This document shows, in pieces, positions 3,138 to 22,633 of a stretch of 26,118 bases of DNA. The translations under genes were made by a program, and so were the position numbers. This DNA comes from a virus, in the IMG/VR virus record IMGVR_UViG_3300035665_000213, positions 1 through 26,118 of that record; one strand, given 5' to 3'. The notes beneath the pieces were generated by a model. The model was not told where the DNA came from. It saw nothing but the letters and a program-made list of their open reading frames with translations, and did not search any database. How positions within the stretch are numbered: position 1 is the stretch's first letter; the number at the start of each line of letters is the position of its first letter.

Positions 3138-3332
3138 ATGACCATCCACCAATACATCGAAAGAAAATACTTCCGGCTAAACACTATGGCAACAATACGC
3201 AACGGGGTATTATACCATTGGGTTAATAACCGTTGGATGCCGAACAAGGAATTTGAACGGATATACCCTCTGCCGAATAAGGTGGGAAAGCAACTTACTA
3301 ATCTTGATAAGAATAAGAACTCATTACTATGA
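3138..3332 (+). CDS. Small hypothetical protein, 64 aa
   Basis: A basic 64-residue protein starting MTIHQYIERKYFRLNTMATI, with a Trp-rich centre (LYHWVNNRWMPN). I recognise no family. An internal Met17 is an alternative start. It follows the hairpin after the SSB gene, and its stop overlaps the methyltransferase start (ATGA, 3329-3332), so the two are likely translationally coupled. A small helper of the methyltransferase is possible but not shown. Confidence 0.55.
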   Translation: MTIHQYIERKYFRLNTMATIRNGVLYHWVNNRWMPNKEFERIYPLPNKVGKQLTNLDKNKNSLL

Positions 3333-4474
3333 CACACGGATCATTATTCTCCGGCATAGGCGGCTTTGACTTAGCTGCCGAATGGATGGGTTGGGAAAAC
3401 GTATTCCATTGCGAATGGAATGAGTTTGGTAAAAAAGTATTACATCATTATTGGCCACAATCAATTTCATATCATGACATCACTAAAACAGACTTCACTA
3501 TTCACCGAGGAAAAATTGACATCCTCACGGGTGGTTTTCCGTGCCAACCGTACTCAAGTGCCGGAAAGCGAAAAGGCAAAGAAGATGAGCGACATCTCTG
3601 GCCGGAAATGCTTAGAGCAATTAGAGAAATTCAACCACGTTGGGTTGTGGGCGAGAATGTTCTCGGCCTTGTTAATTGGTCAGGGGGATTGGTTTTCCAC
3701 GAGGTGCAAGCTGACTTGGAAGCTGCGGGGTACGAAGTATGGCCGTATGTACTTCCAGCTGTATCCGTTAACGCTCCCCACAGAAGAGATAGGGTTTGGT
3801 TTGTTGCCTACGCCAACTTGTGCGGAAACGATACAACCGAAGGAGGCAAGAGAAGTTTTCGGAAACAACCGAATAAAAAGCAACAACGGGATAGAAGGGC
3901 AATGCAAACTAACGGACTTAGCAATGAATGGCCTACTCCCCACCCCAACGGCGTTCGATTACAACAGCGCAAGAACACCGGAGAAATGGGAGGAGGACAA
4001 ACAGAAATGGGCGGACAAAGGAGTGAATCTACAAATGCCATTGAAACAAATGGCAAGGCTGCAAATGTTACCCACCCCAACGGCAATGGATTCAACCAAC
4101 GCAACGGCAACGATGAAGAGCAGCCAAGTGAAAGAGGGGAGTATGCACTCTGTAACGCTGACACGGGCGATGAGTATGGGGATGTTGCCGACACCAATGG
4201 CATCGGATTGCGGGGAGAAAGTAACGGGATTGGAAAATCAAGATTCACTAACGAAGCGGGCGAGATTGGAAACTGGCAAAACTTCCCAACTCAATCCCCT
4301 ATTTGTTCTCGAAATGATGGGCTTTCCTCCCGACTGGACAACATTACCTTTTCTAAGTGGAGAAACGAATCAATCAAAGCAGCAGGTAACGCTATAGTAC
4401 CGCAAGTCGTTTTAATGATATTTAAGGCTATTGAAGAATATGAAACAACACCCCCTCTGGAAAATACGCTATAA
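3329..4474 (+). CDS. dcm: C5-cytosine DNA methyltransferase
   Basis: A 381-residue protein with the ordered motifs of C5-cytosine methyltransferases. Motif I LFSGIGGFDLA (residues 6-16) binds S-adenosylmethionine; motif IV GGFPCQPYSS (68-77) holds the catalytic Cys72; motif VI ENV (109-111); motif VIII HRRDRVW (151-157); and motif X GNAIVPQV (353-360) closes the fold. Between about 165 and 315 the target-recognition part is Asn/Gly/Gln-rich and carries repeated N-G motifs (HPNGVR, HPNGNG, DTNGIG). The enzyme would methylate phage DNA and probably shield it from host restriction; no cognate endonuclease is recognisable. A 307-codon ORF in another frame lies wholly inside this gene, which explains the odd composition. 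It overlaps the genes on both sides. Confidence 0.9.
   Translation: MTHGSLFSGIGGFDLAAEWMGWENVFHCEWNEFGKKVLHHYWPQSISYHDITKTDFTIHRGKIDILTGGFPCQPYSSAGKRKGKEDERHLWPEMLRAIREIQPRWVVGENVLGLVNWSGGLVFHEVQADLEAAGYEVWPYVLPAVSVNAPHRRDRVWFVAYANLCGNDTTEGGKRSFRKQPNKKQQRDRRAMQTNGLSNEWPTPHPNGVRLQQRKNTGEMGGGQTEMGGQRSESTNAIETNGKAANVTHPNGNGFNQRNGNDEEQPSERGEYALCNADTGDEYGDVADTNGIGLRGESNGIGKSRFTNEAGEIGNWQNFPTQSPICSRNDGLSSRLDNITFSKWRNESIKAAGNAIVPQVVLMIFKAIEEYETTPPLENTL
3474..4397 (+). CDS. Overlapping LPTP-repeat protein nested in the methyltransferase gene
   Basis: A 307-codon ORF in the +1 frame relative to the methyltransferase, from ATG 3474 (the frame stays open with an earlier ATG at 3420). It does not look like a shadow. 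It begins MTSLKQTSLFTEEKLTSS, contains CLEQLEKFNHVGLWARMFSA and STRCKLTWKLRGTKYGRMYF, carries four LPTP motifs (residues 111, 155, 199, 238), and ends with SQLNPLFVLEMMGFPPDWT. I recall such LLPTPTAxD and LNPxFVxxMMGFPxxW stretches from phage and bacterial proteins annotated near or as cytosine methyltransferases. The function is not known; a DNA-recognition partner of the methyltransferase is a guess. Expression would need internal initiation inside the methyltransferase mRNA. Confidence 0.65.
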   Translation: MTSLKQTSLFTEEKLTSSRVVFRANRTQVPESEKAKKMSDISGRKCLEQLEKFNHVGLWARMFSALLIGQGDWFSTRCKLTWKLRGTKYGRMYFQLYPLTLPTEEIGFGLLPTPTCAETIQPKEAREVFGNNRIKSNNGIEGQCKLTDLAMNGLLPTPTAFDYNSARTPEKWEEDKQKWADKGVNLQMPLKQMARLQMLPTPTAMDSTNATATMKSSQVKEGSMHSVTLTRAMSMGMLPTPMASDCGEKVTGLENQDSLTKRARLETGKTSQLNPLFVLEMMGFPPDWTTLPFLSGETNQSKQQVTL

Positions 4475-5125: not shown

Positions 5126-7327
5126 ATGCACCAATACACCGATTACCAACAACTCGGCCTCAAGGTCATCCCCATACAATGGGATAGCCAGGCTAAACAA
5201 CCCGTATCACATCGCAACTGGAGTAATCCCGATGACCTGCACCTACGCCCTACGGATAATGGGTTAATGATTCTTACAGGCAATAACTACGGCTGCCTTG
5301 ACTTCGACCTAAAGAATACAAAGGATAAAGAACTATTCAGTAAGTGGATGGCAATTATAACCAACGAGGCACCAGAAATCTTTAGCAAGGTATTCATTGA
5401 GCAAACCCGCAACGCCGGATACCACGTGTGGCTAAACTACGCAGCACTACCCAACAAAACACCCCTCGCTGAATCCCCCGAGGGTAACGAGGTAATCGCC
5501 CTGTATTCAAATGGCCCGGTAGTTTACACATTTCCAACACCCGGTTATACAGAATTCCATCAAAGCATGGAAGATGTGCAGGAGTTGACCGAATCGGAGT
5601 ATAACTACCTAATAGAAGTTTCACAATACTTTAACGAATATAAACCCAAGTACGATCCGAGTAAGAAAGCAATCAGCTACCCGGCGGGGTATGAATCGCA
5701 GTTGGCAGAATTTGACAAGTCCATTACGGATGAAGCGTTCGACACTATTCTGCAATCAATAGGGCTGCTGCCTATACAGGGCTACCGCTACGGCAAGAAT
5801 GATAAGTTCCAGGCCTACAGGCGCAAGGGTAGTGATTCGGCCGGCATCTCCGCTAAAGTGTACTATAATGCACGAAGGGTTATGATATTCAGCGCATCCA
5901 TGAGCAACTTTCCCCATTGGCATAACAAGGAGCAGTATCCTGTCTGGTGCCTGCCGCCTTCGTTTATTCTGTTCTACCACCTCGGCAGGGATTGGGATGC
6001 CGTACTTAAAGCCCTCGAAATCGAACCCGTAGAACAGGGTTACCCTTATAGTATTTTCCCACAACTTATTAACAATTCGCTGCACGAAGTAGCAACTGAA
6101 ATGAGCCTATGCCCGGAGTTTCTCGCTACCGCCGGAATATGGACTATCGCATCACTTGCAGGGAACTGCTATACATCCGACTTTCACAATGTAAAAAACA
6201 TCGTATTTGCTATTATGATAGCCCCCGTATCGGTGGGTAAAACTCCGGCATTTAAAGCTATGTGTGAGGAACCATTAGCCGACTTACTAAAATCGGAAGA
6301 TGCAGCCTTCAAATTAGCGATGGATAACTGGCTGATTGAGAAAGCAGCAGCCAACGTAAATAAGGAATCATTCAGCAAGCCTAAACCCAAACGATTCCAT
6401 CCATTTGCAGTTGATGGCACCACCGAGGGCTACATAGCCCTAATGCAAGACCAGGAGGCAGGGATGGGAGTATATCACGATGAAGCGGAAACTATCCTAA
6501 ACGCAGGGGCGCACAAAGCGAATAACGATGCTATTTCATTCTTTACTCAAGCATTCACCGGGGGCAGGTACACCCAAATTAGAGCGGATCGGGAGAAAGA
6601 AAGAGTAGTTAAATCACTTAACATATCCCTTTTGATGGGTACGCAGCCATCCAGGTTGGCACACATATTCGGGGCTGATAAAATTCAATCAGGATTCGCC
6701 TCACGTTTCCTTATGGTTAAATCCGATTACATCAAACTGAATGAAGATGCCGACCCATTTAGCGGTGGCCGGCAAATGTGTAAGGAGTGGAAAGAATTGG
6801 TAACTCACCTGTACCGCATCAACAAAGAATTTGCAGCCGGAGATTGTGCGCCCATACGGATTGAGATTACACCGGAGGCGAAAACACTATACACCAAATA
6901 CTACAGGCAGAATTTAGCGGATGCGAATAGCCGGATGGCAGGCAAGGCGGAGCAGTACATAATGGGCGCGGAAGCTAAAATGTCGGCATACTTCCCCCGT
7001 ATGTGTCATGTGGTAAGTATCTGTCATAATCCACTAAAACCCGTTATAACGGTGGAAATAGTCAACAAAGCATATAACCTTTACAGGTACTATGCCGAGA
7101 GTACCATATCTATAATTAGTGAGTTATGCGCGGAAACGGAATCCGGCCTACCTGCAGACCTGCGCCTGTTAGTTGATAACCTACCGCCAAAGTTCACAAC
7201 AAAGGAGGTAGATTTGCTTTGTATTAGGTTGAACATAAAGCCTAAGAGATTCTTCGATGCTATGCGTAGGGCTGATTTTGCAAGGGTGGTAAAGAGGGTG
7301 GCGCATGGGCAGTATGAGAAAATGTGA
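5126..7327 (+). CDS. Primase-helicase (Prim-Pol and DUF3987 domains)
   Basis: A 733-residue replication protein. Residues about 1-170 resemble a bifunctional primase-polymerase (Prim-Pol, AEP type): LDFDLKN puts the metal-binding D-x-D at 59-61, and the second motif TRNAGYHVW carries His100. Residues about 215-300 (GYRYGKNDKF, PVWCLPPSF) form a linker domain. From about 310 a DUF3987-type ATPase follows, with a Walker A-like IAPVSVGKTPAFKAM (GKT at 371-373) and a Walker B-like GMGVYHDEAE (DEAE 452-455). The enzyme would prime and unwind DNA at the phage origin. It is the last gene of the early operon, and the repeat array at 7511-7742 begins less than 200 bases after its stop, supporting an origin there. 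Length is normal for this fused class. Confidence 0.85.
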   Translation: MHQYTDYQQLGLKVIPIQWDSQAKQPVSHRNWSNPDDLHLRPTDNGLMILTGNNYGCLDFDLKNTKDKELFSKWMAIITNEAPEIFSKVFIEQTRNAGYHVWLNYAALPNKTPLAESPEGNEVIALYSNGPVVYTFPTPGYTEFHQSMEDVQELTESEYNYLIEVSQYFNEYKPKYDPSKKAISYPAGYESQLAEFDKSITDEAFDTILQSIGLLPIQGYRYGKNDKFQAYRRKGSDSAGISAKVYYNARRVMIFSASMSNFPHWHNKEQYPVWCLPPSFILFYHLGRDWDAVLKALEIEPVEQGYPYSIFPQLINNSLHEVATEMSLCPEFLATAGIWTIASLAGNCYTSDFHNVKNIVFAIMIAPVSVGKTPAFKAMCEEPLADLLKSEDAAFKLAMDNWLIEKAAANVNKESFSKPKPKRFHPFAVDGTTEGYIALMQDQEAGMGVYHDEAETILNAGAHKANNDAISFFTQAFTGGRYTQIRADREKERVVKSLNISLLMGTQPSRLAHIFGADKIQSGFASRFLMVKSDYIKLNEDADPFSGGRQMCKEWKELVTHLYRINKEFAAGDCAPIRIEITPEAKTLYTKYYRQNLADANSRMAGKAEQYIMGAEAKMSAYFPRMCHVVSICHNPLKPVITVEIVNKAYNLYRYYAESTISIISELCAETESGLPADLRLLVDNLPPKFTTKEVDLLCIRLNIKPKRFFDAMRRADFARVVKRVAHGQYEKM

Positions 7328-7381: not shown

Positions 7382-7412
7382 CCCCTGGTGTTTCTACATC
7401 GGGGGTTTTTTT
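7382..7412 (+). terminator. Rho-independent terminator of early operon
   Basis: CCCCTGGTG (7382-7390) pairs with CATCGGGGG (7397-7405) with two wobbles around a TTTCTA loop, followed directly by seven T. A weaker 8-bp hairpin at 7328-7350 precedes it. It closes the early operon 55 bases after the primase stop and insulates the repeat region from readthrough. Confidence 0.85.
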
Positions 7413-7482
7413 ATACGCATTAATGCCCAATTTGGGGGTAATAGTCAACATTATACCTAAATGTGTATTATAATGATTGATA

Positions 7483-7510: not shown

Positions 7511-7742
7511 ATTCGCACCAAATTCGCAATATTCGCACCGACTGCGAATTTATAACTGATTGATTACCATAGGCTAACTAACCATATTCGCATATTCGCA
7601 GAAATTTCAAAGAAATAATAATATTATATATCTATACATAATACTCTATATTACTAAGGAGGTGCGAGAAATATGCGAATACTGCGAATTTGACTGATTA
7701 TCAATGAGTTATCTGCGAATTTGACCGCGAATATCTGCGAAT
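7511..7742. repeat. Heptamer (iteron) array with AT-rich core, candidate origin
   Basis: Ten exact copies of ATTCGCA or its complement lie in 232 bases: ATTCGCA at 7511, 7522, 7531, 7586, 7594; TGCGAAT at 7543, 7674, 7683, 7714, 7736; plus a CGCGAAT at 7726. Left copies mostly point one way and right copies all the other. They flank 7601-7660, which has only 10 G/C in 60 bases by my count. Iterons flanking an AT-rich unwinding zone beside a primase/helicase gene are the classic look of a phage origin. The last copy touches the late promoter, so the array could instead, or also, regulate late transcription. The 471 bases from 7328 to 7798 hold no gene; this array is their main content. Confidence 0.65.
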
Positions 7743-7774
7743 TTGGTAGTTAGTGTGAAATATGGGTACCTTTG
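7742..7774 (+). promoter_or_regulatory. Late-operon promoter
   Basis: TTTG (7742-7745), 21 bases, then TACCTTTG (7767-7774): a full Bacteroidota-type promoter. Transcription would start about 20 bases before the ATG at 7799 and run into the packaging and head genes. Its upstream element abuts the last heptamer, so a heptamer-binding protein could repress or activate it. Confidence 0.65.
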
Positions 7775-7798: not shown

Positions 7799-8068
7799 AT
7801 GGCTATTGGAAAAAAGACAGGAGGCAGAACAAAGGGGGCGGTTAATCACTTTACTCGCTCGGTACGTGAGGTTATTACTGATGCGTTTCACGAAATGCAA
7901 CTTAAGCCAGGGGTTAATATGTTGGAATGGGGCGAACAAAACCCAACCGAATTTTACCGCCTGGCATCCAAACTGATTCCGCTACAGGTAGCCAACGATC
8001 CCGATAACCCAATGCCGACTACCATCATTCAGATTATCCCCGACACCAAATCCCACCCCATTGTATAA
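7799..8068 (+). CDS. Possible small terminase subunit, 89 aa
   Basis: An 89-residue protein: a basic N-terminus (MAIGKKTGGRTKGAVNHFTR) followed by a helical part (VREVITDAFHEM, then LEWGEQNPTEFYRLASKLIP) and a beta-like tail. Similar short proteins with a G-R-x-K-G head and a W-G-x-x-N-P-x-x-F-Y motif stand just before terminase large subunits in many phages. They are taken to be DNA-binding small terminases. Here it is the first late gene, but the large subunit follows only after six sugar/methyl-transferase genes. The family is recognised by pattern only; it could be another small DNA-binding protein. Confidence 0.5.
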   Translation: MAIGKKTGGRTKGAVNHFTRSVREVITDAFHEMQLKPGVNMLEWGEQNPTEFYRLASKLIPLQVANDPDNPMPTTIIQIIPDTKSHPIV

Positions 8069-8132
8069 ATTGTGTGTTTATTGTGGAAAACAAAAGTGCC
8101 GTCTTCAGATGGACCATACCAAAGATATTTGT

Positions 8133-8140
8133 TATCTTTG
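8133..8140 (+). promoter_or_regulatory. Possible promoter -7 box before glycosyltransferase
   Basis: TATCTTTG fits TAnnTTTG and lies 20 bases before the ATG at 8160, but there is no convincing -33 element. If active, it gives the sugar-transferase cassette its own promoter and supports the ATG at 8160 as the start of the first gene. Confidence 0.35.
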
Positions 8141-8159
8141 TGAAACACGAGCAGACACC

Positions 8160-8819
8160 ATGCACATACATTACAACTTTGCCACACGTAGCCGGCCCGA
8201 AAAGATGGCTGCTGCATTTGCTACCATTCAGGCATATTCACATTCTAAGAAGTACACGGTTGGACTGACCGTAGATGATGATGATACCGTTACGCTAAAC
8301 TCAAATGAGTTATCCGACCTGCTAAAGTTCCCCAATGTATTTATCACAATGGGTAAATCAAAAAGCAAGGTACACGCCATCAACCGGGGTATGGAAGGAT
8401 GGCAGGGTGATATAGTTGTGAATATGTCCGATGACATGCGTTTCCTAAAGCAGGGCTATGACATTGATATTATCAATGCATTTGAGGGTAACTTAGACCT
8501 ATTCATTCACTTTCCCGATGGGCGGGTTAATCACCTGCTGCCAACGATGTCAATCATGGGTAGAACGTATTATGAGCGGTTCGGGTACATCTACCACCCC
8601 CAATATGAATCCCTTTGGTGCGATAACGAGGCTATGGATGTGGCGAAGATGTGCAATTCGTATAAATACGTAGATAAGCGGATATTTGACCACTACCACC
8701 CTGCATGGACTGGGGAGCCTGTAGATGCGTTGCTTAATCATACTCAATCGTTTTACCGGGCGGATGAGATTACTTACATCCGGAGAAGTAAGGCCGGGTT
8801 CCCTAAACACAACGTATGA
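8160..8819 (+). CDS. Glycosyltransferase, GT-A fold
   Basis: A 219-residue protein from ATG 8160. The frame is open back to a TTG at 8061, and that extension has two C-x-x-C pairs, but no good start. The body has the GT-A glycosyltransferase layout: NFATRSRPEKMAAAF near the N-terminus; VDDDDTV (about 38-44) after a strand; KVHAINRGM, a typical sugar-nucleotide loop; and NMSDDM (88-93) as the D-x-D-like metal site. Late residues form an acceptor part (WCDNEAMD). It would transfer a sugar from a nucleotide donor; donor and acceptor are unknown. It overlaps the next gene by 4 bases (ATGA), so the two are coupled. This opens the glycan cassette between the terminase genes. Confidence 0.75.
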   Translation: MHIHYNFATRSRPEKMAAAFATIQAYSHSKKYTVGLTVDDDDTVTLNSNELSDLLKFPNVFITMGKSKSKVHAINRGMEGWQGDIVVNMSDDMRFLKQGYDIDIINAFEGNLDLFIHFPDGRVNHLLPTMSIMGRTYYERFGYIYHPQYESLWCDNEAMDVAKMCNSYKYVDKRIFDHYHPAWTGEPVDALLNHTQSFYRADEITYIRRSKAGFPKHNV

Positions 8820-9358
8820 CCCTATCCATCCTAATTTGCACCCTACCCCAACGCATAGGCTACCTATCGCAGTTGCTACAGGTACTGACACCGCAACGTA
8901 CACCGGAGGTTGAAGTTCTAACTGAATCGGACAACGGTGCAATGACTACAGGGCGTAAACGTAACCTACTCTTACAACGCAGCACAGGCAAATACGTGGT
9001 ATTTATTGATGATGATGATATGGTTGCAAGTACCTACATAGCCGATATACTTGCCGCCGCCGAATCTAATCCCGATGCCATTGTATTTAACGGCACAATG
9101 ACCACCAACGGCACGGATGAGCGTAAGTGGTACATATCAAAGGATTACGGCTACGAGGCGAAGGGTGGGGCTTATTACCGCTATCCTAATCATATCGTAC
9201 CCATTAGAAGGGAGATTGCAATGGCATTCCCTTTTATGGATATACGTATAGGTGAGGATTATGCGTGGGCTACTGCTATACACAATGCAGGGCTGATTAA
9301 GACAGAGGTGAAGATTGAGAAGGAACTTTATCACTATCAATTCCGTACAAACAAATGA
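8816..9358 (+). CDS. Glycosyltransferase family 2
   Basis: A compact 180-residue GT2 enzyme: MTLSILICTLPQRIGYLSQL is the nucleotide-binding start of the family, GRKRNLLLQRSTGKYVVF precedes the metal site, and IDDDDMV (about 64-70) is the D-x-D motif. GEDYAWA (about 148-154) fits the catalytic E-D loop near the end. It is shorter than typical GT2 proteins (about 230-330 aa) but has the core. It overlaps the genes on both sides by 4 bases. Probable role: adding a sugar to a virion or cell-surface glycan along with its neighbours. Confidence 0.85.
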   Translation: MTLSILICTLPQRIGYLSQLLQVLTPQRTPEVEVLTESDNGAMTTGRKRNLLLQRSTGKYVVFIDDDDMVASTYIADILAAAESNPDAIVFNGTMTTNGTDERKWYISKDYGYEAKGGAYYRYPNHIVPIRREIAMAFPFMDIRIGEDYAWATAIHNAGLIKTEVKIEKELYHYQFRTNK

Positions 9359-9954
9359 GATATAGCCAAAATAACGAGCAGGATATAATCCTTGCCTACT
9401 TCCAATCCCGCAAAGGATTCTTTCTGGATATTGGTGCGAACGATGGCGTTACCCTATCCAATACCTACGCATTGCAGCAACAGGGTTGGAGTGGTGTACT
9501 GGTAGAACCGAGCGAGGAAGCCTTCAACCGCATCTTAGCCAATCCTATGGTACACAAATTCAATGTAGCCATAGGCGAAACGGATGGGCATTGTACCTTC
9601 CATGAGATGGGCAATCATTTGGGTAGGGGCGATGTATCGCTGCTTAGTACAATCAAACGCAACGAAACTAAACGATGGCCGTGTACGGAGTTCAAAGAGC
9701 GAATGACCGAGGTATGGACTTACAACACCCTGGTAAAGAACTCCCCATTAAAATACTTTGATTTCATCTCTATTGATGCCGAGGGGGTAGATTATGAGAT
9801 ATTAGAACAGATTAACCTGAAGCATACGCAAATGGTATGCATTGAACATAATGGTAACGTAGACCTGTTCCATTTAATTAAAGACTACTGCAATGCAGCA
9901 GGGTTGAATAAATGCTTATTAACTAACTTAGAGAATGTAATATGGGCCAGATAA
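9355..9954 (+). CDS. FkbM-family methyltransferase
   Basis: A 199-residue S-adenosylmethionine-dependent methyltransferase of the FkbM family. FFLDIGANDGVTLSNTYAL (about 22-40) is the SAM-binding motif I in the FkbM form. GVLVEPSEEAF follows as motif II, and KYFDFISIDAEGVDYEIL is the characteristic downstream D-x-E-G segment. FkbM enzymes usually O-methylate sugars or hydroxyl groups on glycans. In this cassette, capping or masking a sugar chain is the likely job. It overlaps the following gene by 13 bases. Confidence 0.85.
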   Translation: MRYSQNNEQDIILAYFQSRKGFFLDIGANDGVTLSNTYALQQQGWSGVLVEPSEEAFNRILANPMVHKFNVAIGETDGHCTFHEMGNHLGRGDVSLLSTIKRNETKRWPCTEFKERMTEVWTYNTLVKNSPLKYFDFISIDAEGVDYEILEQINLKHTQMVCIEHNGNVDLFHLIKDYCNAAGLNKCLLTNLENVIWAR

Positions 9955-10679
9955 CATCGGGTAAAGTAATTGTATCCCTATCCTCAACAGGCAGGGAAAA
10001 CTACAACGAGGCACAACTCGGACTAATCAGAAGTATAGACCGCAAGGCACCTGATTACGATGTACACCTTCGGAGTGTGGATGGGTATGTTGATGAATAC
10101 CTTGAGCGTAAGATTCACCTCGGAGACTGGCCTAATACCGAACGATGGGGTAAGTCATGGAATCACCAAAATATGCCTTATCAATTCAAGCCGTTTATGG
10201 TAGCGGAGGCACTTGAGATGGGATACCGGAAAATCATTTGGTGTGATTCAACAATCAGGGTACACCAGAATCCCGATCCGTTGTGGGCATTAGCAGCCAA
10301 GCATGGGATAGTAGCATGGAACAACGAAGGGCATCCGTTACACAAGTACATACCCGACCATCAAATCAAGTTCTTAGGGCTAAATAGCTATAGGTATGTG
10401 ATTACCATGTACCAAATTATGGCCTGTTGTATTGTGTTTGATTTCGACCATCCTGCAACGATGCCTATCTTTGAGAAATGGATACAGGGAGCGAAGGAGA
10501 ATTGTTTTCATCACAACGAATCGGTTAATCCGCAATATATCAGCAGCCGACATGACCAGGCACTACTATCCGGATTGATGAATCTTGCAGGGATTCCGGT
10601 GCAGCCGTACGGAGGATTAGCATATCGGCACTATCTACCTGTTGAACCATTCTTTATTAATTGGGGGGTAAAGGATTAA
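9942..10679 (+). CDS. Putative glycosyltransferase, GT8-like
   Basis: A 245-residue protein starting MGQITSGKVIVSLSSTGREN. KIIWCDSTIRVHQNP (about 96-110) resembles the strand-and-metal site of GT8-like or related GT-A enzymes, with a D-S in place of a strict D-x-D. QFKPFMVAEALEMGY just before and RHDQALLSGL (about 205-214) after are typical of nucleotide-sugar transferases that read D-Q in the acceptor loop. No exact family can be named; a sugar transferase in the same cassette is the best reading. It overlaps the FkbM gene by 13 bases and ends 2 bases before the next ATG. Confidence 0.6.
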   Translation: MGQITSGKVIVSLSSTGRENYNEAQLGLIRSIDRKAPDYDVHLRSVDGYVDEYLERKIHLGDWPNTERWGKSWNHQNMPYQFKPFMVAEALEMGYRKIIWCDSTIRVHQNPDPLWALAAKHGIVAWNNEGHPLHKYIPDHQIKFLGLNSYRYVITMYQIMACCIVFDFDHPATMPIFEKWIQGAKENCFHHNESVNPQYISSRHDQALLSGLMNLAGIPVQPYGGLAYRHYLPVEPFFINWGVKD

Positions 10680-10681
10680 TT

Positions 10682-11296
10682 ATGGACTTCACCAAAGAGC
10701 AATTCATCAACTTTTGGGGCAGCAATGGCTACTATGAAGCGTTTACCTATGGGATAGGCATACAGGAAGTAATTAACCGAATTATCTATCCGTTTGGTGG
10801 TGTTGAAACCTGTTTAGAGATAGGATGCGGCGGAGGTGTATTTACTAAAGAATTATCGCATACTTTCAGTAAGGTTATCGGTATTGATGTTATTCCCCTA
10901 CATGCCGGAGTGATATACCATAATTTAGAATACAAGGAATTAGATAACCAAGACTATAAATGCACAGGTGTAGATGATAACTCAATCGACCTTGTATTCA
11001 GTTACGGAGTATTCTGCCATTTCTCAAATGATGCCATCAAAGAGTATCTGCAATCTATTTACAGAGTGATGAAGAAGGGCGGTGATTGTGTGATAATGAT
11101 TAGTAACTTTGATAAACTGAAAGCAGAGTTCCCCGACTTCGATGATTGGAGCAAATACAAGTTAGGGGATAGAATGTTAATCGGGCATTTTTACCAAGAT
11201 GATAGAACGGTGGATATTATGAAAGATAAATTCAAAATTGTTAGCCGTAATTTAACACCCGACCACAGGGATATAGTGGTACATCTAAAGAAATAA
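10682..11296 (+). CDS. Class I SAM-dependent methyltransferase
   Basis: A 204-residue methyltransferase from ATG 10682 (an upstream in-frame TTG at 10661 would overlap the previous gene). TCLEIGCGGGVFTKEL is a textbook motif I, IGIDVIP motif II, DNSIDLVFSYGVFCHF motifs IV/V, and RVMKKGGDCVIMIS motif VI. The later part (residues about 150-204) gives a small substrate cap. The substrate cannot be read from the sequence; its cassette suggests sugars or lipids rather than DNA, as no DNA-methylase N/D-P-P-Y motif is present. It is 2 bases from its neighbours on both sides, indicating one operon. Confidence 0.85.
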   Translation: MDFTKEQFINFWGSNGYYEAFTYGIGIQEVINRIIYPFGGVETCLEIGCGGGVFTKELSHTFSKVIGIDVIPLHAGVIYHNLEYKELDNQDYKCTGVDDNSIDLVFSYGVFCHFSNDAIKEYLQSIYRVMKKGGDCVIMISNFDKLKAEFPDFDDWSKYKLGDRMLIGHFYQDDRTVDIMKDKFKIVSRNLTPDHRDIVVHLKK

Positions 11297-18959: not shown

Positions 18960-19546
18960 TGGCTAAGGTAGAACTCGACTTATTGGGTGGCAAGGCGGTG
19001 AGGCGAATGTTTGCAATAGCAGCCGAAAAGGTAGGCCCGCAACTTGCAAAGGAGATGAATGCATCCGCTTTAACGATTGAGAAAGATGCAAAGCGGTTAG
19101 CACCTGCGAACTTTGGGAAATTACGCCAATCCATAAAGCACAATATTGGTGAGCCGTTAATGAAATCGGTATATTCAGAATTAGGTTATGCGCCCTATGT
19201 AGAGTTTGGCACGAAATCTAAAGCAATGACAAACCCAATCCATAAAGGGTTTTCAGCATATGCCGCACAATTTAAGGGGAAGGGTGAGGGTGATTATGGA
19301 GATTTGATATTATCACTTCTTTATTATGTAAAGCGTAAAAAGTTAGCCGGAACATACAAAGTAAAATCAAAGAGAAGGGTAGGGAATGCTAATCAAAGGT
19401 TAGATGAGGATTTGAGAGTGGCAGAACGCATGGCATACTTTATACTGAAAAATGGAATTAAGCCACAACCTTTTCTTATACCTGCCTACCTCAATGAAAA
19501 GCCGAAACTTATTAAACGAATAGTAGAATTATTGAAGTTCAAATGA
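18959..19546 (+). CDS. HK97 gp10-like tail completion protein
   Basis: A 195-residue basic protein of the HK97 gp10 type. An N-terminal helix (VGPQLAKEMNASALTIEKDA) leads to KRLAPANFGKLRQSIKH, the family core with R-Q-S-I, then YAPYVEFGTKSK, the Y-x-x-x-V-E-F-G-T signature. An insertion of about 60 residues (LSLLYYVKRKKLAGT and a Lys/Arg-rich stretch) lies before the C-terminal PQPFLIPAY segment. It helps finish the head-tail joint or tail end. Confidence 0.85.
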   Translation: MAKVELDLLGGKAVRRMFAIAAEKVGPQLAKEMNASALTIEKDAKRLAPANFGKLRQSIKHNIGEPLMKSVYSELGYAPYVEFGTKSKAMTNPIHKGFSAYAAQFKGKGEGDYGDLILSLLYYVKRKKLAGTYKVKSKRRVGNANQRLDEDLRVAERMAYFILKNGIKPQPFLIPAYLNEKPKLIKRIVELLKFK

Positions 19547-19959
19547 TAATGAAAAACCCCGCCATACCGATAAAACAATGGTTAGTTGCCCGCCTACAGG
19601 CATACGCCTATATTGATGTGTACGATGGCATGACTCCAACGGATGCAGATGGGGAGTATATTGTTATCACTTCCCGAACTGCGAACCAAGGGGAAGGTAA
19701 AGACTGCTTCCAATTTGAGGTATCGGCTAACGTGGATATAGTAACTAAGGGCAGTAACTTCGGATTCAAGAGAGCAGAGCAAATAGCCGAACTTGTAGTG
19801 GGCGGTATCAATTCAGATACGGTGGTAACCTTACCTGTTGGTTGGGATTGTAAAAACGTGGTATGTGAATCAATCAACAACTTAGAGGACTTAGACCCCT
19901 TTGAGAATACTTTTCGTGTAATAATTCGTTATACCTTTGTAATCACTCAAACAATATAA
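19543..19959 (+). CDS. Tail terminator-like protein (DUF3168-like)
   Basis: A 138-residue protein that starts MIMKNPAIPIKQWLVARLQA (the second Met, 6 bases on, is a possible start) and continues with YDGMTPTDADGEYIVITSRT and FQFEVSANVDIVTKGSNFGF, ending in FRVIIRYTFVITQTI. The helix-then-strands pattern and its position between gp10-like and tail tube genes match DUF3168-type tail terminators, which stop tube growth at the set length and join tail to head. Identified mainly by position and fold pattern. Confidence 0.7.
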   Translation: MIMKNPAIPIKQWLVARLQAYAYIDVYDGMTPTDADGEYIVITSRTANQGEGKDCFQFEVSANVDIVTKGSNFGFKRAEQIAELVVGGINSDTVVTLPVGWDCKNVVCESINNLEDLDPFENTFRVIIRYTFVITQTI

Positions 19960-21055: not shown

Positions 21056-22633
21056 ATGGCAGAAGAAAAACTCCGGATAGTATTAACCGCCGATAATAAG
21101 GATGCGCTTGCAAAGTTAGAACAGACTATTGCAGGGCTTGATGGAATTGAAAAGGCAAGCGGCAAGGCGGGTGGTGCAACTAAGAAACTCGGTACTGACT
21201 TCACCGGAATGAGTCGGGTTATTCAGGATTTACCATTCGGATTTATGGCAATCCAAAATAACTTAACTCAATTATTGCCGGCGGCAGGTGCAGCAGGGTT
21301 GGCATTTTCTGCTTTAATGGCAGGGATACAATTTGCCCAAGTAGGGTTAACGTATTGGACAAGAGGCTCAAAAGATGCTACAAGTGCATTGCAAGAGCAA
21401 ACAAAATCTCTAACTGAATTTAATATAAAATTATATAGTGTTAAAGATGCTTTTGAATCAGCAAGAGCAGGCACATTAAGCAAAAAAGAAGCATTAGATA
21501 AATACAATGAAAGTTTAGGCAGTAGTATAGGCTATGCAAATAGTATATCAGAAGCAGAAGATTTGATGGTAAAAAATACTGCTACCGTAATTAAGGCAAT
21601 GCAGTTAAGGACACAAGCTAATGTATATTCTGCAAGGGCTGCTGAATTAAATGCTAAAATGGTTAGCGGTGAAATGTTTGATGCAAATAGTAGTTGGATG
21701 GAGTCTGCATTAAATGCCACAAAAAACTATTTTAGAGGGATGAATGCTGGACAAATGATTGTGGAAAATGTAAACACATCATTAGACCAACAAAATAACT
21801 TAATGTCATCTTCTAATAATCTTATTCAAGATGCAATAAAATTAGAGAAAACATTAGCAGGTTCACGAACTAAACCTGATGCAGGTGGCGGTGCGACACA
21901 AGGAGAAAAAATCAACGGAGTATTTGAAAACTACATGAACAATCTCAAAGAGATTCTTCCGTTGTTAGAAAGATTTAACGCTCAAAATGATAGGTTAAAC
22001 TTCGGGCAGAAAGGTGGGCAACAAACTGAAATGCTTGCCCCGCAACGTAACACAGGCACACAGGATTTACAAAATTTACAATTACAAGTAACTGCTAACA
22101 ATACGTTGAACAATGCGCTTGCCGTAAGAAATTCGGAACAAATGAAGTACGAAGAGCAATTAAGAGAATCGAAAGCGGCTGCACTTACAAATACTTTAAT
22201 GAATAGTTTTACCGGATTATTTAATGCTATGCAGAACGGTGCAAGTTTAGGCGATGCATTGGGTAATATGTTTAAGCAGGTTGCTATTGATATTGCAAAG
22301 GCAGCAGTTCAAGCAGCTATATTTCAAGGTATTTTGATGGCGTTTGGGGGCGGCGGAGGATTATCGTTCGGGCAAGGGTTCTTAGGTGGATTCAAGAAAC
22401 TCCTCGGCTTCTCCGAAGGCGGTACCGTATCCGGCCCCCAATCCGGTTACCCTGTAATGTTACACGGTACAGAGCATATTGTACGCCCCGACCAGATGAA
22501 ACAAATCATTGCATCGGCATCGCAAATGGGGGGTACTGGTGCAAGTAAGGTTATAGTAGAGGGCAGAATACAGGGGCAAGATATTTGGTTAAGTCAGCAA
22601 AGAACAAACACGTTCAGAGGTTTAACAAACTAA
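21056..22633 (+). CDS. Tape measure protein
   Basis: A 525-residue protein that sets tail length. It is helical and Ala/Gln-rich with hydrophobic stretches at about 70-95 (LLPAAGAAGLAFSALMAGI) and about 415-440 (VQAAIFQGILMAFGGGGGL), and a helical coiled core between. The C-terminus SEGGTVSGPQSGYPVML, then HGTEHIVRPDQM, is typical of tape measures. At 525 residues it is short; with the usual rough rule of 0.15 nm per residue, the tail would be about 80 nm. It directly follows the chaperone pair, as in most siphoviruses. Confidence 0.9.
   Translation: MAEEKLRIVLTADNKDALAKLEQTIAGLDGIEKASGKAGGATKKLGTDFTGMSRVIQDLPFGFMAIQNNLTQLLPAAGAAGLAFSALMAGIQFAQVGLTYWTRGSKDATSALQEQTKSLTEFNIKLYSVKDAFESARAGTLSKKEALDKYNESLGSSIGYANSISEAEDLMVKNTATVIKAMQLRTQANVYSARAAELNAKMVSGEMFDANSSWMESALNATKNYFRGMNAGQMIVENVNTSLDQQNNLMSSSNNLIQDAIKLEKTLAGSRTKPDAGGGATQGEKINGVFENYMNNLKEILPLLERFNAQNDRLNFGQKGGQQTEMLAPQRNTGTQDLQNLQLQVTANNTLNNALAVRNSEQMKYEEQLRESKAAALTNTLMNSFTGLFNAMQNGASLGDALGNMFKQVAIDIAKAAVQAAIFQGILMAFGGGGGLSFGQGFLGGFKKLLGFSEGGTVSGPQSGYPVMLHGTEHIVRPDQMKQIIASASQMGGTGASKVIVEGRIQGQDIWLSQQRTNTFRGLTN

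Follow-up and report, generated by a model that had tools for sequence, protein, structure and literature searches.

A likely replication origin behind the gene of a DUF3987 primase-helicase in a Bacteroidota phage, with repeats that covary with a C-terminal helix of the protein

The window analyzed here is a virus record of 26,118 bases from a Bacteroidota phage, and the features around its one repeat array are listed in Table 1. As stated in a preliminary description of this DNA, the array lies between the primase-helicase gene and the late promoter, and no plausible gene was found from the stop codon of the former (7327) to the ATG at 7799. The promoter was assigned by sequence, from the Bacteroidota-type consensus. 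Elsewhere in the window, a cytosine-5 DNA methylase is encoded at 3329-4474 (PF00145, E 4.7e-45), a spot held in G002 and G004 by unrelated-looking methylase genes, and a block of glycosyltransferase- and methyltransferase-like genes extends from the first late gene to the large terminase gene (8061-11296), an unusual location. At the left edge, the minus strand of 3-428 encodes Ala/Gly/Trp-rich protein repeats (GAASWAAAGDA), and the related region of G002 contains 15 copies of CGCAGCA. Endonuclease-like genes (GIY-YIG-like and HNH-like, by sequence) directly precede the primase in G004 (reversed, 21246-21983) and G002 (18971-19741).

Table 1. Coordinates of the array, its neighbors and the putative initiator in the window
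Feature	Position	Strand	Basis or remark
Primase-helicase (DUF3987), 733 aa, putative initiator	5126..7327	+	Pfam PF13148, E 3.1e-33
C-terminal winged helix, residues 675-733, putative repeat reader	7148..7324	+	AlphaFold2 models
Predicted recognition helix, residues 706-713 (PKRFFDAM)	7241..7264	+	residues 710-711 vary with repeat motif
Terminator-like hairpin and T run, between primase gene and array	~7384..7414	+	sequence; in relatives too
Inverted heptamer (iteron) array, putative origin of replication	7511..7742	.	10 exact ATTCGCA/TGCGAAT
Left arm	7511..7600	+	repeats 7511+, 7522+, 7531+, 7543-, 7586+, 7594+
IHF-consensus site AATCAATCAGTTA, left arm	7553..7565	-	WATCAANNNNTTR; kept in 17/17 arrays examined
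AT-rich core, candidate unwinding element	7601..7673	.	78% A+T
Right arm	7674..7742	-	repeats 7674-, 7683-, 7714-, 7736-; one-mismatch copy 7726-7732
IHF-consensus site TATCAATGAGTTA, right arm	7699..7711	+	kept in 15/17 arrays
Bacteroidota-type promoter of the late operon	7742..7774	+	TTTG 7742-7745, N21, TACCTTTG 7767-7774
Small 89-aa protein, first late-operon gene	7799..8068	+	phrog_11043 match, no function given; terminase-small-like by position

Recounting agreed with the ten exact copies of ATTCGCA/TGCGAAT reported for the array; the whole window holds 13, and those outside are singletons, with one array per contig. The excess over chance, for which about three copies had been expected, was upheld: dinucleotide shuffles of the whole window gave a mean of 3.74 and a maximum of 11 copies, and none of 100 shuffles reached 13. 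In an unbiased scan of all heptamers, the ATTCGCA array, with 10 copies in 300 bp, was denser than any other cluster in the window, and the densest cluster in each of 40 first-order Markov windows had at most five copies. The two groups of repeats had been said to face opposite ways, and the arms are indeed mostly inverted about the core (left, five plus and one minus; right, all minus), with an eleventh copy on the minus strand bearing one mismatch (CGCGAAT). The described 60-base AT-rich stretch with 10 G/C was counted at 7601-7660. The preliminary description overlooked two perfect IHF-consensus sites, inverted to each other, inside the array; only six such sites occur in the 26 kb window. 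No DnaA box (TTWTNCACA) was found inside the array, and those elsewhere were scattered and single, without a cluster. GC skew was weak and inconsistent (G004 was a misfit), did not single out the array and was not used as origin evidence.

Inverted arms with IHF sites also occur in lambda attP, and such an arrangement could serve recombination or partition, with an integrase (attP arm sites) or ParB (parS) binding the arms. We consider this extremely improbable: neither protein was found among the scanned proteins of the window and of the circularly complete G002 (not every protein was scanned), and the repeat motif tracks a helix of the primase, as described below. Lambda cosB likewise combines repeats with an IHF site, and the array adjoins the terminase-small-like gene, as expected of a packaging site (cosB/pac-like) at which a small terminase subunit from that gene binds the repeats and IHF sites. 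This reading is also very unlikely. The 89-aa protein was rejected as the repeat reader because the ATTCTCA phage G003 has the same protein as the ATTCGCA window (100% identity), and ATTCGCA also occurs with alleles that share only 72% identity with that of the window, for example in G001. Moreover, the array changes place together with the helicase and leaves the 89-aa gene behind, and elements without a terminase have comparable arrays (both below). No comparable array was present upstream of distant homologs of the 89-aa protein (L053-L063).

An initial genome scan with the window primase returned no relative, and the contigs that support the following results are mostly metagenomic fragments. 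Two relatives look like complete circular genomes of ~35.3 kb, namely G002, whose ends share an exact repeat of 123 bases, and G003, whose ends overlap by 185 bases at 99.5%. Absence of the array from related phages with the same primase had been named as a refutation; the array was instead present in every such relative whose contig reaches far enough, and always lay 3' of the DUF3987 initiator gene where enough downstream DNA was available. It was the densest heptamer cluster of each contig, with the exception of one coding repeat in G002. Relatives whose primase is 95-98% identical retained the array along with its spacing and IHF sites, and their repeats were either all ATTCGCA or all ATTCTCA; a relative with a 79% identical primase, which is among the arrays counted for IHF sites, carried AAGTTCA repeats. 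Searching with the next glycosyltransferase yielded many further phages of the same backbone and the motifs ATTTGCA and AATTGCA, giving five versions in all. Thus the layout expected in relatives was retained, whereas the heptamer itself is not fixed and changes with the recognition helix of the primase. Extra genes lie between the primase and the array in several phages (G001:8335-8529, minus strand; G008 after 3033; L346, L351, L361, L372 and L377), encoding a small GKRTGAGRP-type protein, a PAPS-reductase-like protein or a 284-aa protein, and the array is kept each time.

An earlier study (PMC5862659) predicted that DUF3987 acts as a replication helicase in mobile elements. Pfam detected no primase domain in residues 1-300 of the window protein, and AEP-like motifs were recognized in the N-terminal part by eye only. 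Since the full-length AlphaFold2 model was poor before residue ~310 (mean pLDDT 52), no fold was assigned to this part. The C-terminal model aligned to winged-helix proteins in VIA-align with Z up to 6.1, which reflects a common arrangement only; Foldseek gave nothing at E ≤ 0.001 for this model, and a sequence search of solved structures gave no match.

Comparison of the ATTCGCA and ATTCTCA phages showed that, among the 733 residues, only 702, 711 and 713 distinguish the two types, and residues 711 and 713 sit on the predicted recognition helix. At the DNA level, four of 585 polymorphic coding sites (in codons 675, 711, 712 and 713) segregated with array type. The whole primase was discarded as a type marker, being 95-98% identical regardless of type; the C-terminal helix alone segregates. 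Across all five motifs, 35 of the 36 distinct arrays fitted one rule for residue 711, Asp if the motif ends in GCA and Asn if it ends in TCA, and residue 710 followed the two bases before the last three (Phe or His with TC, Val or Ile with TT, Lys with GT). The sole exception, L357, encodes a Val-Asp helix in its first 84 bases and carries an AAGTTCA array; this mismatch reflects either a genuine recombinant or a chimera at the contig end. The change from one type to the other in L357 (1-500) falls inside the first 90 bases of its contig. A tree built from 14 close relatives was set aside for a wider set, as it held only two changes and was almost unresolved, a probable effect of recombination. 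In a tree built from the helicase core, from which the C-terminus was excluded, the motif class and residue 711 changed together at least ten times, and all six independent pairs on supported branches agreed (P = 0.031).

The end of the primase gene and the array are just 0.2-0.4 kb apart in most phages, and the two might simply be inherited together by proximity while another protein reads the repeats. The intervening DNA argues otherwise. None of the polymorphic linker columns segregated with array type, 24 of them showed all four allele/type combinations, and linkers were 91-99% identical yet the phages differed jointly at both ends; L367 (Val-Asp, ATTTGCA) and L348 (Lys-Asn, AAGTTCA), for instance, share 99% identity over 141 linker bases. 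Recombination has therefore mixed the linker without breaking the match between primase and array, and linkage alone is insufficient to explain the covariation because the linker does not segregate by type. L346, L351 and G008, with 0.9 kb of extra DNA including a gene in between, still match, and neither the DnaA-like nor the 89-aa protein tracks type. Hence we give co-inheritance by proximity very little credence.

The preliminary description suspected the primase and an early HTH protein as binding partners. The covariation supports the primase; the HTH protein is not needed, because this DnaA-domain-IV protein is identical in the CGC-type phage G001 and the CTC-type phages G007 and G014, for which reason it was rejected as the repeat reader. 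In G002, the protein is a 144-aa product of the minus strand (G002:C1:13573-14004, L186; Pfam Bac_DnaA_C, E 9.7e-22), and a 60% identical version is present in G003. That the repeat specificity is set by the C-terminal domain of the primase-helicase is suggested by covariation only, without binding data.

In G012 and L043, which share the backbone, the DUF3987 primase is missing and a BT4734_N/PriCT_2/VapE primase-helicase is encoded instead. In both, GTAAAGG is repeated 11 times about an AT-rich core, starting within a few bases of the stop codon of the VapE-type gene, and further such replacements were found in L384-L386 and L388. The late promoter and the 89-aa gene stay put in these phages, and the array adjoins neither, lying instead upstream of a VRR-NUC gene. 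The array moves with the helicase and therefore belongs to the initiator, which is strong evidence that neither packaging nor promoter control is its principal role.

Similar arrangements were found outside phages. In Bacteroides integrative elements, distant DUF3987 proteins (~20% identity) end in a homologous domain, and short inverted repeats directly follow the DUF3987 stop codon and precede a partner gene that has the annotation DUF6371. The inverted-repeat score exceeded that of all 100 shuffles in 10 of 12 distinct downstream regions, and control segments were mostly near zero. These arrays are probably small versions of the DUF3987 origin, with a role as RNA hairpins not excluded. Across L240-L319, the short inverted arrays of Bacteroidota integrative elements have ~9-base spacing and clade-specific motifs (TTGTCG, GCATTTTC and others).

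Both data sets bear on whether the array is an operator, to which the primase-helicase or a repressor binds so as to control the late promoter while replication starts elsewhere. The last repeat of the window array overlaps the -33 element of that promoter, as an operator might; in the VapE-type phages, however, the promoter keeps its place and the array follows the helicase gene, and the repeats of the integrative elements are flanked by two genes of a single operon rather than placed ahead of a promoter. We regard an operator as unlikely, although promoter control could be a second function of the array.

Taken together, the array is likely the replication origin, bound by the DUF3987 primase-helicase encoded just upstream. 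Its conservation in relatives and its covariation with the primase support the iteron-origin reading of the preliminary description; these, like its anatomy and its exchange upon exchange of the initiator, were directly observed. Binding and origin firing are inferred, as no binding or replication data are available. One point against an origin here is that the DnaA-domain-IV protein of these phages could act in initiation elsewhere. Binding, unwinding, priming and initiation can be pictured only by analogy with known relatives. The C-terminal winged helix would bind the repeats, with heptamer specificity set by recognition-helix residues 710 and 711, and bending by IHF or HU at the two inverted sites may join the arms over the AT-rich core. 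Opening of the core would then allow helicase rings to be loaded, plausibly as a head-to-head pair, with priming by the same polypeptide and extension by a host polymerase.

More broadly, we propose an undescribed, Bacteroidota-wide origin class in which phages and integrative elements encode DUF3987 primase-helicases whose C-terminal winged helix reads short inverted iterons just behind their own gene, with a two-residue code (710/711) switched repeatedly on a near-constant background, probably in escape from competitors or origin-directed attack. The chances that this wider proposal holds appear evenly balanced. What drives the switching is a matter of speculation; candidates are competition, with other phages or with satellites, and nucleases directed at the origin, of the kind seen in ICP1 and PLE. 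The many matched specificity switches on a nearly constant backbone are the surprising part of these results, and they make it testable why phages change origin specificity. A likely origin, its reading domain and its specificity residues can now be named, and natural cognate and non-cognate pairs are available for a swap test. If the arrays of the integrative elements act alike, origins could be mapped in many Bacteroidales elements of the gut and serve to build vectors. What is new is a likely origin for the DUF3987 family, a natural specificity series and the probable small versions in Bacteroidota integrative elements; the literature searched contained no paper combining DUF3987 with iterons and no iteron origin for DUF3987.

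Several known systems resemble the one described here. In SaPIs, the repeats flank an AT-rich segment and the iterons are island-specific. The SaPI initiator is a helicase whose C-terminal DNA-binding domain binds a multi-repeat origin directly downstream of its own gene (PMC7581432). The window system likewise has its array directly 3' of the initiator gene and a predicted C-terminal winged helix on a DUF3987 ATPase. It differs in residing in a tailed Bacteroidota phage, not a satellite, and in its inverted arms and conserved IHF sites. In the initiator, Pfam found only DUF3987, and no DUF927 or D5/Primase_Cterm helicase; the system therefore works like the SaPI type without being a member. 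In SCCmec (Cch2/CCPol-MP), the C-terminal domain of the helicase also binds repeats downstream of its own gene (PMC7581432). There, the repeats of the putative origin are three short direct ones (AAGTG), the primase is a separate, polymerase-type protein and the helicase is of another family.

P4 also requires a second site, crr, and no crr-like second array was found in the window, each contig having one array. According to PMC4234260, P4 alpha is a single polypeptide that combines primase and helicase with a winged helix for origin binding and acts on repeats, as proposed here, and its primase is of the TOPRIM type. ORF904 of the crenarchaeal plasmid pRN1 is a primase-helicase with a C-terminal winged helix and an essential region just downstream of its gene (PMC4234260), but its origin is a stem-loop without iterons. 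In PLE of Vibrio cholerae, the initiator RepA belongs to the RepA_N type without predicted helicase or primase activity (PMC7145576), and the RepA_N domain, not a C-terminal winged helix, is the reader. As in the phages studied here, the DNA-binding domain of RepA covaries with the origin repeats and whole replication modules are exchanged, and swapped pairs showed function in cognate combinations only (PMC8263062).
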